45,115 nt of DNA from a bacterium (GTDB lineage: Bacteria > Patescibacteriota > Minisyncoccia > UBA6257 > GWB1-50-10): the NCBI GenBank assembly GCA_021824045.1, contig JAKALR010000004.1, positions 1 through 45,115 of the forward strand. The letters run 5' to 3'. The translations under genes were made by a program, and so were the position numbers. The notes beneath the pieces were generated by a model. That model saw only the letters and a list, made by a program, of their open reading frames with translations. It did no database searches and was not told where the DNA came from. Below are positions 11,151-31,141 of this stretch, in pieces (positions within the stretch are counted from its first letter, which is position 1; the number at the start of each line of letters is the position of its first letter).

Positions 11151-11185
11151 CGCTAAAATGCTTTTAATGCTCGATGATTCTGACA

Positions 11186-11351
11186 GAACCCACTCCAAAG
11201 ATATTTTTCGTCGCGACGTCCACCCTGGTTCGAATGAGGCAGGGAACGACGACGAGGCTGTATTGGCGAAGCGAATCCAGCGAGGAGGAGTGACGAAGCC
11301 GCAGCCGAACCAGATGGATAGAAGCAGAAAAGATATTTTTGGAATGGGTTC
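11186..11351 (+). promoter_or_regulatory. long-range hairpin over the ileS start
   Basis: GAACCCACTCCAAAGATATTTTT (11186-11208) pairs with AAAGATATTTTTGGAATGGGTTC (11329-11351). Confidence 0.45.
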
Positions 11352-14300
11352 CGCGTTTTCCCTGCCGGAAGTCGAAGAAAAAATCCTGAAATTCTGGAAA
11401 GAGAATGACATTTTCGGCAAATCGCTGAAAAAGAACAAGTCGAAGAAAAAATTCGTCTTCTATGAAGGGCCGCCGACCGCGAATGGGAGACCGGGTATCC
11501 ACCATGTGCTCTCGCGGTCGTTCAAAGATATCGTCCTCCGCTATAAAACGATGTCCGGATTTTTCGTTCCCCGGCGTGCCGGATGGGATACGCACGGCCT
11601 GCCGGTCGAAATCGAAGTGGAAAAGAAGCTGGGGTTGAGATCGAAAAAGGAAATCGAGGAATATGGCATCGCCGCATTCAATAAAAAATGCCGTGAGTCG
11701 GTGTGGGAATATAAGGACGAGTGGGAGAAAATCACCGAGCGCATCGGATTCTGGCTCGATATGGATCATCCGTATGTCACATACGAGAAGAATTACATGG
11801 AGAGCTTGTGGTGGATCTTTTCCGAGGTTAATAAGAAAAAACTTCTCTACCAGGGGCACAAGGTGATTTCATGGTGCACGCGGTGCGGGACAGCTCTTTC
11901 CTCCCACGAACTTGCCCAGGGGTACAAAACAACCGAGGATACATCTGTTTACGTGAAATTCAGGCTTTTGCCGAACCAAACGATCGGCCGGAGTTTCACG
12001 ACCGACGATAAAACGTACATCCTTTCATGGACCACGACGCCGTGGACGCTTCCCGGGAATGTCACCTTGGCCGTCGGCGAATCGATTGAGTACGCGCTCG
12101 TTTCCGTCGAGAGCGGGGAAAAATATCTTCTGGCAGTTTCCCGTCTTGGTATTCTGGAAAAATACGAGGTGAAGGCCAAACTGAAGGGCAAGGATCTCAT
12201 CGGTCTTGAATATGAGCCGCTCTTCAATGTTCCGAAGCTGAAAACCGAGAAATCATACCGGGTGTATCCGGCCGGTTTTGTGACGACGGAGGACGGCTCC
12301 GGCGTCGTTCACACGGCGGTCATGTACGGCGAGGACGATTACCAGCTGGGGACGAAAATCGGCCTGCCGAAGCATCACACCGTCGATACGTCGGGGAAAT
12401 TCACCGCCGACGTTCCGGAGTTTGCGGGATCATATGTGAAAGCGAAAGAGACCGAAGAGAAGATTTTTGAAATACTGAGGAAAAATAACAACCTCCTCCG
12501 GACTGAGAAGTACGAACATGAATATCCCTTCTGCTGGAGGTGCGGGACGCCGCTCTTGTACTACGCCCGTGATTCGTGGTTCATCGGCATGAACACGTTG
12601 AAGCAAAAACTCCTGGCGTCAAACAAGACGGTGAACTGGATTCCGGAAACGATCAAGAACGGGAGGTTCGGCGAATGGCTGAAAGACGTCAAAGATTGGG
12701 CGATCTCGCGCGAACGGTATTGGGGGACGCCGTTGCCGGTCTGGACGTGCGGGAAGTGCGGCACGACGGAAGTTTTGGGAAGTGTCGCGGAGCTCGAAAA
12801 GAAGCTGGGGCATTCGAAGAATGCCTATTGGGTGATGCGCCACGGCGAAGCGGAGAATAACGTTCTTGATATCATCGATGCGACAAAAACGAAATTTCAC
12901 CTGACAGCGCGCGGCAGGAAGCAAGTTGAAGCATCGATCAAGAAGTTCAGGCGGGAACTTTCCCGGCACAACAAGAAGATCGACGTTGTCATAACGTCCG
13001 ATATCTTGCGGACGAAGGAGACGGATGCGATTGACCTGAAGGTGCTCGGGGATGCCGCGTCAAAAGTCGATAAGCGTCTCCAGGAGATCGATTTCGGCAT
13101 GGATCTCGGGGGTTGCCACGATGAGAAATACCACGTCCTGTTCCCCACGTACGCGTCAAAGTTCGAAAAACGCCCCGTGGGAGGGGAGTCGGTGCGGGAT
13201 CTCCGGACTCGCCTTTGGGATTTTCTCCGGGAATGCGAGTCGAAGTATGAAGGGAAGAATATCCTCCTCGTGACCCACGAGTATCCCGCGTGGATGCTGT
13301 TCCAGATCGCCGAGGGATGGACCGAACGGGAAGCCGTCGCTGAAAAAGAAAAACGGGGCAGCGATTTCGTGAAATTCGCCGAAGTCAGAAAACTCAGCTT
13401 TGCAATGGTGCCGCGAAACGATACCGGCGAGATCGATATCCATAAGCCGTACGTCGACGAGGCAGTTTTCAAATGCCGGTGCGGCGGGACCATGAAACGG
13501 ATACCGGAAGTTGCGGATGTCTGGTTCGATTCCGGTTCGATGCCGTTCGCGGAGGATCACTATCCCTTTGAAAATAAGACTACAATCGCCTATCCGGCCG
13601 ACTACATCGTCGAGGGCATCGATCAAACGCGTGGCTGGTTCTACACGCTTCTCGCCGTTGCGACCCTCCTCGGCAAGAAGGCGCCGTACCGAAACGTCAT
13701 TTCTCTGGGTCTTCTGCTCGACAAGAATGCACAGAAAATGTCCAAATCCAAGGGCAATGCGGTGAGTCCGTGGGATATGATCCAGAAATACGGGGCCGAT
13801 ACGGTCCGATGGTATTTTTACACCGTGAATCCGCCCGGTGAACCGAAGAAATTCGACGAAGCTGACCTCGGTAAGGTTCTCCGGCAGTTCGTTCTCATGA
13901 TGTACAACTCATATGTTTTCTATAAAACCTACGCGGATAAAAATTCGAAATTCCCTCCCTTCGCCAAGGCTTCGGGGGGCAAGCAAATTCGAAATTCAAA
14001 ATTGACGAATGTTCTCGATCGGTGGATTCTTGCGCGCCTCGACGAGACTGTTGCCGCTTCGACTAAAGCGCTTGATGCTTACGATATCGGCGGCGCCGGA
14101 AAGTCAATCGAGGATTTCGTCAATGATCTCTCGAAGTGGTATATCCGCCGGTCGCGAAGGCGTCTCCAAAAACCGGACGACAAAAAGGATTACGCCGCCG
14201 CTTCGGCCACCCTCGGGTATTGCCTCGCGGAGCTTGCGAAGCTCATCGCTCCTTTTATGCCGTTCTTCGCGGAATCGCTCTATCAATCCGTGTTGCCGAA

Positions 14301-14865
14301 GGGCAAACTCTCGGTTCACTTGGAGGATTGGCCGGAAGTAAACTCAAAACTCAAAGCTCAAAATTCAAAATTATTATATGACATGAAAACGGTGCGGGAT
14401 CTCTCGAGCGTTGCTCTCGCGAAGCGCGCTGAACTGGGCATCAAAGTCCGTCAGCCGCTCCAGTCATTAAAAATTAAAAATTTAAAATTAAAAATTAACA
14501 AAGATCTCCTGGATATTTTGAAGGATGAGATAAACGTGAAAGAGATAATCTTCGACGCCAAGCTCAAGGATGACTTCGTCCTCGATACGAATATAACGCC
14601 GGAACTCAAGGAGGAGGGAGCCGTACGCGAACTGGTGCGGATGGTCCAGGGTCTCCGTCAGGACGGGGGATTGACCCCAAAAGACAGGATCGTCCTGATG
14701 CTGGAGGCCGGGCCGGAGGTGAAAGGCGCAGTTCAGCGGAACAAGAACGTCATTATGAGAGAAATCAACGCTTCGGATATCGTCTTGAAACGCTCAGAAA
14801 AATTCGATATCGAACTCGAAACGAAATTCGACGGTGAGCCGATCTGGCTCGGGATAAAAAAATAG
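11344..14865 (+). CDS. ileS: isoleucyl-tRNA synthetase with embedded histidine-phosphatase domain
   Basis: GPPTANGRPGIHH, TTTPWTLPGN, WFDSGSMPFAEDHYPFE, KMSKSKGN, IKVRQPL; inserted VMRHGEAENN...LLVTHEYPAW. Confidence 0.92.
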   Translation: MGSAFSLPEVEEKILKFWKENDIFGKSLKKNKSKKKFVFYEGPPTANGRPGIHHVLSRSFKDIVLRYKTMSGFFVPRRAGWDTHGLPVEIEVEKKLGLRSKKEIEEYGIAAFNKKCRESVWEYKDEWEKITERIGFWLDMDHPYVTYEKNYMESLWWIFSEVNKKKLLYQGHKVISWCTRCGTALSSHELAQGYKTTEDTSVYVKFRLLPNQTIGRSFTTDDKTYILSWTTTPWTLPGNVTLAVGESIEYALVSVESGEKYLLAVSRLGILEKYEVKAKLKGKDLIGLEYEPLFNVPKLKTEKSYRVYPAGFVTTEDGSGVVHTAVMYGEDDYQLGTKIGLPKHHTVDTSGKFTADVPEFAGSYVKAKETEEKIFEILRKNNNLLRTEKYEHEYPFCWRCGTPLLYYARDSWFIGMNTLKQKLLASNKTVNWIPETIKNGRFGEWLKDVKDWAISRERYWGTPLPVWTCGKCGTTEVLGSVAELEKKLGHSKNAYWVMRHGEAENNVLDIIDATKTKFHLTARGRKQVEASIKKFRRELSRHNKKIDVVITSDILRTKETDAIDLKVLGDAASKVDKRLQEIDFGMDLGGCHDEKYHVLFPTYASKFEKRPVGGESVRDLRTRLWDFLRECESKYEGKNILLVTHEYPAWMLFQIAEGWTEREAVAEKEKRGSDFVKFAEVRKLSFAMVPRNDTGEIDIHKPYVDEAVFKCRCGGTMKRIPEVADVWFDSGSMPFAEDHYPFENKTTIAYPADYIVEGIDQTRGWFYTLLAVATLLGKKAPYRNVISLGLLLDKNAQKMSKSKGNAVSPWDMIQKYGADTVRWYFYTVNPPGEPKKFDEADLGKVLRQFVLMMYNSYVFYKTYADKNSKFPPFAKASGGKQIRNSKLTNVLDRWILARLDETVAASTKALDAYDIGGAGKSIEDFVNDLSKWYIRRSRRRLQKPDDKKDYAAASATLGYCLAELAKLIAPFMPFFAESLYQSVLPKGKLSVHLEDWPEVNSKLKAQNSKLLYDMKTVRDLSSVALAKRAELGIKVRQPLQSLKIKNLKLKINKDLLDILKDEINVKEIIFDAKLKDDFVLDTNITPELKEEGAVRELVRMVQGLRQDGGLTPKDRIVLMLEAGPEVKGAVQRNKNVIMREINASDIVLKRSEKFDIELETKFDGEPIWLGIKK

Positions 14866-26750: not shown

Positions 26751-28316
26751 ATGATGAATATGAAGGAAACGCTGGTTTTGGTCGTTTTGGACGGCTGGGG
26801 AGTGGGGAAACTCGACGAATCGAACCCGATCTACAAAACAGATCCCAAGACGATCAGGTATATCAGGGAAAATTTTCCCTGCGGAGCGCTCCAAGCGTCC
26901 GGCATGGCGGTCGGTTTGCCCTACGACGAAGAGGGAAACAGCGAGGTTGGGCATCTGACGATGGGCGCGGGGCGCGTCTTTTGGGAACATTTCCCCAAGA
27001 TTTCTCTGGCGGTGAAGGACGGGAGTTTTTTCAAGAATGAGGTGCTGCTTTCGGCGATCAATTGGGCGAAGCGGAAGAAATCCCGCCTGCATTTGGTGGG
27101 GCTTCTGACGGAAACCAACGTTCATTCCTCGCTGGAGCATCTTGAGGCGCTGATAGCCATGGCGCGCAAGAACGGCGTTGAAGATTTTTCCCTCCACTTG
27201 TTCTCCGACGGGCGGGACAGCGCGCCGCAATCGTTCCTTGCGCTCCTCGCGCGGCTCGGGAAAGATGTCGGATTCGACGTTCTGAAAAACGTCGCGAGCG
27301 TTTCGGGAAGATATTATGCCATGGATCGGGATAAGCACTGGGACAGGACCGAGAAGGTGTACCGGGTTCTGACCGGCGATGTCGCTCCCATCGGAACCGC
27401 GGCCGAAGCCGTCCAGAAAGCGTATGTCAAAAATTTGGACGACGAGTATGTGGATCCGTCGGCGGTGGGGGAGCCGCATCCGATCGCCGACCATGACGCC
27501 GTGCTGTTCTTCAATTTCAGGGAAGACCGGATGCGGCAGCTCACCGCCGCCTTCATCGATCCGGATTTCAAAAATTTCACCACGAAGCCGATCGCAGATC
27601 TCTTCGTGGTTACCATGACCACGTATGATCAAACCTTCGCGGTGCCCGCCGCTTTCCCGGATGCGTTCGTGGAAAAACCGCTCGGAGAAGTGCTGTCCGA
27701 AGCGGGGAAAACGCAGCTCCGGGTCGCCGAAACGGAAAAGTACGCCCATATCACGTATTTCTTCAACGGGCTTCGGGAGAAGCCTTTCCCGAACGAGTTT
27801 CGGGTCCTGATCCCGTCGCGGAACACGATTCACTACGAGGATCATCCGGAGATGATGGCAAAGCCGATCACGGATCGGGTCATCGCCGCTCTGGGGGAAG
27901 GAACCTTCGATTTTATTCTGGTGAATTACGCGAACGCGGACATGGTCGCCCATACCGGAAACTACGAGGCGACGAAGATGGCCATCCGCGCGATCGACGA
28001 TGAACTCAAGCGACTCCTCGAAAATTCGCTGCCCCTGGGGCACGTCGTCATGATCACGTCGGATCACGGCAATGCCGAGGTGCTCTTGGATCTCGATACC
28101 GGCGAGCCGGAAACCAAGCACGACCCGAGTCCCGTCCCGTTCTACCTCGTGGGGAGACAGTTTAAAAAGAAAACGCCGACCCCGGCGCAGACGCCGCTGC
28201 CGGTCGTCGGAATGATTTCCGATATCGCGCCGACCATCCTGAGTCTTTTGAGGGTACCGAAGCCGAAAGAAATGACTGGTCAGAGTTTACTGCCGGAACT
28301 TTTGGAAGAAATTTAA
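26751..28316 (+). CDS. gpmI: 2,3-bisphosphoglycerate-independent phosphoglycerate mutase
   Basis: VVLDGWG, GNSEVGHLTMGAGR, HLFSDGRD, FNFREDRMRQL, ITSDHGNAE. Confidence 0.95.
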   Translation: MMNMKETLVLVVLDGWGVGKLDESNPIYKTDPKTIRYIRENFPCGALQASGMAVGLPYDEEGNSEVGHLTMGAGRVFWEHFPKISLAVKDGSFFKNEVLLSAINWAKRKKSRLHLVGLLTETNVHSSLEHLEALIAMARKNGVEDFSLHLFSDGRDSAPQSFLALLARLGKDVGFDVLKNVASVSGRYYAMDRDKHWDRTEKVYRVLTGDVAPIGTAAEAVQKAYVKNLDDEYVDPSAVGEPHPIADHDAVLFFNFREDRMRQLTAAFIDPDFKNFTTKPIADLFVVTMTTYDQTFAVPAAFPDAFVEKPLGEVLSEAGKTQLRVAETEKYAHITYFFNGLREKPFPNEFRVLIPSRNTIHYEDHPEMMAKPITDRVIAALGEGTFDFILVNYANADMVAHTGNYEATKMAIRAIDDELKRLLENSLPLGHVVMITSDHGNAEVLLDLDTGEPETKHDPSPVPFYLVGRQFKKKTPTPAQTPLPVVGMISDIAPTILSLLRVPKPKEMTGQSLLPELLEEI

Positions 28317-30867: not shown

Positions 30868-31141
30868 GCCGTGGTAGCTCAGTGGTAGAGCATTCGCCTG
30901 AACTCTTCGGGCACCGATTCAGCAATGAGTCGGAGAAAACTGGGTGAATTCGGGGGAACTTCGTAAGAACAATCCCGAGCCAAGCCCCAATGCAGGATTG
31001 GGGAAGGTGTAGAGACTATCCCTTCGGGGAGTACTCCGATGCAAATCGGGGGAAGCGCCCAGCTCCGCGCAAGCGGATGATGATATAGTCCAACTTCGCA
31101 GGAAGAGCGATTGGTCGGGGGTTCGATTCCCTCCCGCGGCA
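30868..31141 (+). tRNA. tRNA-Phe(GAA) interrupted by a group I intron (exons 30868-30899 and 31102-31141)
   Basis: GCCGTGG/CCGCGGC acceptor; spliced loop CT-GAA-GA; GGGTTCGATTCC T-arm. Confidence 0.78.
30900..31101 (+). ncRNA. group I intron (tRNA-Leu-intron-like core)
   Basis: GCCT/GGGC P1 with U.G at the splice site, AATCCCGAGCCAAGCC, GGTGTAGAGACTATC, GATGATATAGTCC, terminal G. Confidence 0.75.

Follow-up and report, generated by a model that had tools for sequence, protein, structure and literature searches.

The window analysed here, a 45,115-nucleotide stretch of a Patescibacteria contig, carries on its forward strand an open reading frame (11158-14865) that we identified as an isoleucyl-tRNA synthetase (IleRS) by its match to TIGR00392 (883.9 bits, cut-off 621.4); PF00133 and PF08264 also matched. 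IleRS, an essential and universal enzyme, attaches isoleucine to its tRNA; Patescibacteria are ultra-small bacteria forming a large group known almost only from DNA. Judging from where homologues begin to align, the ATG at 11344 is likely the start of the gene, ileS, and the in-frame codons upstream of it are probably non-coding. No T-box or other Rfam element was found 5' of ileS at the Rfam gathering score. Farther downstream, the window also contains a group I intron (30870-31140, +; RF00028, 53.6 bits) located in the anticodon loop of a tRNA gene, and in silico excision of 30899-31100 yielded a tRNA-Phe(GAA) according to ARAGORN.

The synthetase is nearest to type 2 (IleRS2) rather than to type 1 (IleRS1) enzymes, with phmmer scores of 804 bits to the IleRS2 8c8w and 345 bits to the IleRS1 8c9e. 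The AlphaFold model of the full-length protein (pLDDT 90.6, pTM 0.84) had the Priestia megaterium IleRS2 8c8v as its top Foldseek match, and the GIHH, KMSKS and editing-domain motifs as well as the C-terminal domains are all retained. Furthermore, the ileS product is the only IleRS found in the 612-kb genome, which is 97.7% complete, and for this reason we infer that it still charges tRNA-Ile. GXHH variants of the class I HIGH motif are known in some IleRS2 and confer mupirocin hyper-resistance (PMC10485003). By analogy, the GIHH that replaces HIGH in the window would predict hyper-resistance to mupirocin.

The first-pass annotation, made from the sequence alone, had placed a histidine-phosphatase domain inside this IleRS, between its editing and KMSKS parts. 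A Pfam scan bore this out, as PF00300 matched ORF residues 558-722 (E=6e-24; 85.2 bits for the whole protein and 90.1 for the segment, cut-off 21.7). The alignment of the synthetase to the solved IleRS2 8c8w ends at ORF residue 552 and picks up again at 758; therefore, the insert corresponds to about 205 extra residues encoded at 12814-13428, at most 3 bases away from the 12811-13428 originally proposed. More exactly, it sits inside the zinc ribbon, flanked by its two Cys pairs (C469/C472 and C711/C713), and all the motifs read as its hallmarks are present (Table 1). AlphaFold modelling, which had been suggested as a check, gave confident predictions for the synthetase and for the isolated domain alike (domain pLDDT 91.3, pTM 0.89). 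The 50 PDB matches listed by Foldseek for the domain model were histidine phosphatases, mutases or their relatives, and the domain resembled small-molecule phosphatases and mutases with a TM score of about 0.7 at about 20% identity. The PF00300 profile, the catalytic residues and the predicted fold are thus all those of branch 1 of the histidine-phosphatase superfamily.

Table 1. Features of the ileS locus. Residues are numbered from the ATG at 11344 unless ORF residues are specified.
Feature	Position	Strand	Basis
In-frame stretch 5' of the likely ileS start, 62 codons	11158..11343	+	Homologues and solved IleRS align from about ORF residue 65
ileS, type-2 isoleucyl-tRNA synthetase with embedded histidine-phosphatase domain	11344..14865	+	1173 aa from ATG 11344
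GIHH (class I HIGH motif, GXHH variant)	11494..11505	+	Sequence
Zinc ribbon Cys pair 1, C469 and C472	12748..12759	+	Sequence
Histidine-phosphatase domain insert, about 205 aa	12814..13428	+	PF00300, breakpoints relative to solved IleRS2, AlphaFold
Catalytic R499-H500, RHG motif	12838..12843	+	Invariant in 118 distinct IleRS inserts
Second catalytic Arg, R556	13009..13011	+	Invariant
Acid, E581	13084..13086	+	Glu in 117/118, Asp in 1
E615 of the GGES motif	13186..13188	+	Invariant
Second catalytic His, H645	13276..13278	+	Invariant
Zinc ribbon Cys pair 2, C711 and C713	13474..13482	+	Sequence
KMSKS motif	13735..13749	+	Sequence

Comparison of the 118 distinct IleRS inserts revealed that the Arg and His of RHG, the second Arg, the Glu of GGE and the second His never vary, with much variation elsewhere. 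The insert of the window compared to that of a congener gave a dN/dS of about 0.11 within the genus (roughly 0.13/1.18). Among all the domains embedded in aminoacyl-tRNA synthetases (aaRSs) that we collected, a true catalytic replacement was found only in the valyl-tRNA synthetase (ValRS) of genome G142, in which the second His is replaced by Ser. A split HMM match at locus L089 reflected gaps only, not a catalytic replacement. Given the invariant catalytic residues, the purifying selection and the confidently predicted fold, the embedded domain is very probably catalytically competent, in agreement with the active phosphatase originally proposed.

No characterised family that was compared accounted for a specific reaction. 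The NCBIfam cut-offs for cofactor-dependent phosphoglycerate mutases were missed (dPGM_arch, 59 vs 225 bits; GpmB, 34 vs 261 bits), and the window encodes a separate cofactor-independent enzyme, gpmI (26751-28316, +; 549 bits), as the first-pass annotation had pointed out. For both reasons, glycolytic phosphoglycerate mutase was rejected as the obvious role of the domain. The CobC, PspA and SixA equivalogs also scored far below cut-off (52 vs 162.9, 35.5 vs 350 and 21.5 vs 74.5 bits, respectively). Because no NCBIfam equivalog cut-off was reached, no substrate can be assigned from characterised families; the sequence and the predicted fold correspond to branch-1 small-molecule phosphatases in general and single out no substrate. 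We infer that the insert acts as a phosphatase on a small molecule.

A survey of IleRS length and domain order across Patescibacteria showed that the insert recurs. In the order to which the window belongs, 79 of 99 genomes had an insert match in an ORF of at least 690 aa; about 30 of these 79 were checked by sequence, all being IleRS, and the remainder were assigned by ORF length. A phylum-wide sample of 239 genomes contained about 37 insert-bearing IleRSs. We then measured the gap between the two flanks of the site in 190 IleRS ORFs, a set that includes repeats of the same genome, and obtained values of -2 to 12 residues (n=47), 140 to 246 residues (n=137) and 379 to 395 residues (n=6). These classes correspond to no insert, one domain and two domains, respectively, and the first of them confirms that other IleRSs hold only a short linker at this spot. 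All six double-domain IleRSs belong to family f96 and contain two different phosphatases in tandem. The reading frame of one surveyed IleRS (L224, genome G085) runs across 19 in-frame TGA codons, which suggests that this genome or bin includes an organism that recodes TGA.

IleRS is not the only host. Eight ValRSs (G096, G059, G314, G142, G101, G320, G144 and G284) carry a histidine phosphatase between their zinc-ribbon motifs, a site equivalent to that of IleRS, and the zinc-ribbon loop is the commonest insertion site in both synthetases. The ValRS of G144 contains two histidine phosphatases. In that of G320 (L182, 1-3657), the editing region accommodates a HAD domain, and a serine hydrolase adjoins the histidine phosphatase. 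The 1572-aa IleRS ORF of G333 (L205, 2167-6882) contains three histidine-phosphatase domains at three sites, namely the zinc ribbon, a position between YPF and ADFIAEG, and a position directly before the anticodon domain. In the IleRS of the related genome G144 (L179, 1138-5490, -), the site between YPF and ADFIAEG is occupied by a GNAT acetyltransferase, and the third site, before the anticodon domain, by a histidine phosphatase. The f75 lineage uses two further IleRS sites, one of them occupied by a GNAT domain. Furthermore, a PF00300 search of the 239 genomes revealed that, among the matches listed (about 150, with E up to about 3e-33), every ORF of at least 600 aa was an IleRS or a ValRS, the long ORFs being identified by reading. 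Shorter fusions exist with other partners: a single 486-aa ORF of G226 (L198, 1222-2679) combines a histidine phosphatase with a pyruvate kinase according to Pfam, and in G217 and G164 (L196 and L197; 550 and 552 aa) inspection placed a histidine phosphatase C-terminal to a 2-hydroxyacid dehydrogenase-like protein.

In a tree of the domains, most IleRS inserts formed one clade, and the ValRS inserts and the second domains of f96 fell elsewhere. Placing all the aaRS-embedded domains in one clade, as expected from a single insertion, was rejected by an AU test (p=0.025); this is weak to moderate evidence, because the group was named with the tree in view. On the IleRS backbone tree (FastTree), presence and absence of the insert switch at least 10 to 13 times, gains and losses being indistinguishable. 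Identity is normally about 12 points lower in the insert than in the backbone. In two genomes, the insert was 61-68% identical to that of the genus of the window, compared to 43-57% for the synthetase parts. G070 illustrates this pattern (insert, 61-63%; flanks, 43-50%). For G003, a congener of the window, sliding windows gave identities over most of the synthetase core of 60-90% with the insert-free IleRS of G007 and of about 40-60% with that of the window. Over the insert and the C-terminal end, identity with the window was about 50-83%. As the insert is closer to that of the window than the surrounding synthetase is, the domain was transplanted between synthetases in two genomes. These comparisons indicate that the phosphatase domain can move independently of its host synthetase.

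We also searched for free-standing relatives. In ten genomes of the order, IleRS is intact and lacks the insert. Five of the ten, which belong to families f12 and f22, contain a free-standing gene (E of 2e-17 to 2e-22) that falls inside the insert clade. Conversely, no free-standing match at an E of 1e-12 or better was found in the 79 insert-bearing genomes. Outside the class, f55 and f88 also carry free-standing genes of this kind. This distribution, which involves few lineages, suggests that one role may be served by a fused or a free protein. Some complete genomes of the class (G007, G089, G095 and G297) have a close relative in neither embedded nor free-standing form, and the function is therefore dispensable. 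An attempt to assign a substrate through the neighbours of the free-standing genes failed, as these vary by lineage: by sequence inspection, they include a Nudix gene in G152, isochorismatase- and deaminase-like genes in G134, an alkyltransferase-like gene in f12 and a secA-like gene in f22. No common theme and no pattern tying them to tRNA emerged.

We consider it probable that the insert is an active phosphatase of small molecules, maintained because of its own reaction and physically linked to the charging of isoleucine and valine. According to this explanation, a complete branch-1 histidine phosphatase would sit in an exposed zinc-ribbon loop of the only IleRS of the cell, and the host enzyme would go on charging tRNA-Ile. 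Phosphohistidine chemistry is established for the histidine-phosphatase superfamily. Here, the phosphohistidine would form on H500, with R499, R556 and H645 making up the phosphate pocket and E581 acting as the acid, and the domain would dephosphorylate a small molecule, the likeliest substrates being nucleotides and sugar or metabolite phosphates. The domain would be retained for this activity, and its housing in IleRS or ValRS would bring some benefit, either co-localisation or co-expression with isoleucine and valine charging. The architecture, the conservation of the catalytic residues and the purifying selection were observed, as were the repeated uptake of the domain by hardly any host other than IleRS and ValRS, its transplantation between synthetases and the related free-standing genes of some lineages that lack the insert. 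The repeated choice of the same two synthetases, the use of several sites and the retention of the domain through synthetase exchange argue for coupling. Since site and copy number are variable, strict geometric coupling is unlikely to be required. Against this explanation count the dispensability of the function and the one ValRS domain (G142) that lacks the second catalytic His. The same domain, together with the location of the site near the core of a tRNA-binding enzyme, would fit a structural or regulatory insert that has no turnover and either senses a phosphometabolite or shapes tRNA binding. Dead phosphatases usually lose their catalytic residues, which in IleRS are the best conserved positions of the domain, and we regard such a role as improbable. 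An assembly artefact or a gene-calling error could be suspected given that most genomes are metagenome assemblies. However, the same junctions occur in dozens of independent genomes and no stop codons interrupt them; because the insert is found in the same place in so many genomes, it is neither a product of chance nor a chimera, and we hold this explanation refuted, with next to no probability left to it.

Two further explanations offer different answers to why a phosphatase is housed there, and the confidence given to each overlaps with that given to an active, coupled phosphatase. The fusion could be neutral or driven by expression, a housekeeping phosphatase being well expressed when lodged in an insert-tolerant loop and having no functional tie to charging. 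The preference for the zinc-ribbon loop fits this scenario, as do the lodging of other enzymes (GNAT in the G144 IleRS, HAD and serine hydrolase in the G320 ValRS) and the fusions to pyruvate kinase and to a 2-hydroxyacid dehydrogenase-like protein. Yet the strong aaRS bias of the long ORFs among the matches listed speaks against it, and so does the domain being kept while the surrounding synthetase was replaced, which suggests selection for the combination; we find a neutral origin rather unlikely. Alternatively, the domain may act in cis on the IleRS or ValRS reaction or on the tRNA, its target being AMP or adenylate that remains after editing, a tRNA whose 3' end is damaged, or an inhibitor resembling an aminoacyl-adenylate, and thus constitute a second proofreading, repair or detoxification site. 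In favour of this possibility, domains of more than one clade (AU test) were taken up repeatedly and almost exclusively by IleRS and ValRS, which are close relatives and both edit, and two further IleRS sites are in use in the f75 lineage. There is also a precedent, as histidine-triad hydrolases detoxify adenylate-like antibiotics (PMC7157772). Nevertheless, a cis role leaves the restriction to isoleucine and valine unexplained, since ATP, AMP and adenylates take part in the reaction of every synthetase, and the free-standing relatives, the variable site and copy number and the dispensability of the function argue against an obligatory one. We therefore view action in cis as unlikely, slightly more so than a neutral fusion. 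We extend only tentative credence, at a similarly low level, to a broader proposal that sees the IleRS and ValRS of Patescibacteria as platforms for the repeated recruitment of enzyme domains (mostly histidine phosphatases, but also GNAT, HAD and serine hydrolase). Their target would be a substrate, a by-product, an inhibitor or a form of damage peculiar to isoleucine and valine charging, and the recruited domains would represent a new type of aaRS module that acts in cis in quality control or detoxification.

Beyond what the first-pass annotation had noticed, our results reveal that both IleRS and ValRS recurrently contain the domain within Patescibacteria, that it can be present in tandem or triple copies and that it has free-standing relatives. 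Both synthetases bearing extra domains and fusion proteins with a histidine phosphatase were already known. What appears to be new here is the combination of a histidine phosphatase with IleRS or ValRS, recurrent and well conserved in many Patescibacteria, of which we found no description in the open-access literature searched. The union physically joins an essential, universal enzyme to a second enzyme in a large bacterial group, and its repeated formation with the same pair of hosts suggests an unrecognised link between isoleucine and valine charging and a phosphate-ester reaction. A single purified protein and its point mutants would allow such a link to be tested directly, and the fusion has consequences for annotation and for the use of Patescibacteria IleRS as a marker or drug target.

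The IleRS of the window shares its catalytic core, CP1 editing domain, zinc ribbon, and anticodon and C-terminal domains with P. megaterium IleRS2 8c8v (PMC10485003). In contrast, none of the solved IleRSs that it matched contains a phosphatase, and the loop that accommodates about 205 residues in the window has about 5 in 8c8w. The IleRS family with an N-acetyltransferase domain (NF040702) likewise contains a foreign enzyme domain, but of a different enzyme family; the IleRS of the window scored 341.5 bits against this model (cut-off 1999), which had no match at an E of 1e-300 in the 239 Patescibacteria genomes, a threshold at which the controls were silent as well. The insert itself is alike in fold (TM about 0.7) and catalytic residues to branch-1 histidine phosphatases (PF00300) such as PspA (4ij5), a riboflavin-pathway phosphatase (9mmh), GpgP Rv2419c (4qih), PhoE (1h2e) and CobC (6e4b), from which it differs by its low identity (about 20%) and by being housed within another enzyme. 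Its best NCBIfam match, the bifunctional RNase H/acid phosphatase NF005567 (60 bits, cut-off 326), is also a phosphatase fused to a nucleic-acid enzyme, but in that protein the fusion is terminal, whereas in IleRS the phosphatase is an insert.
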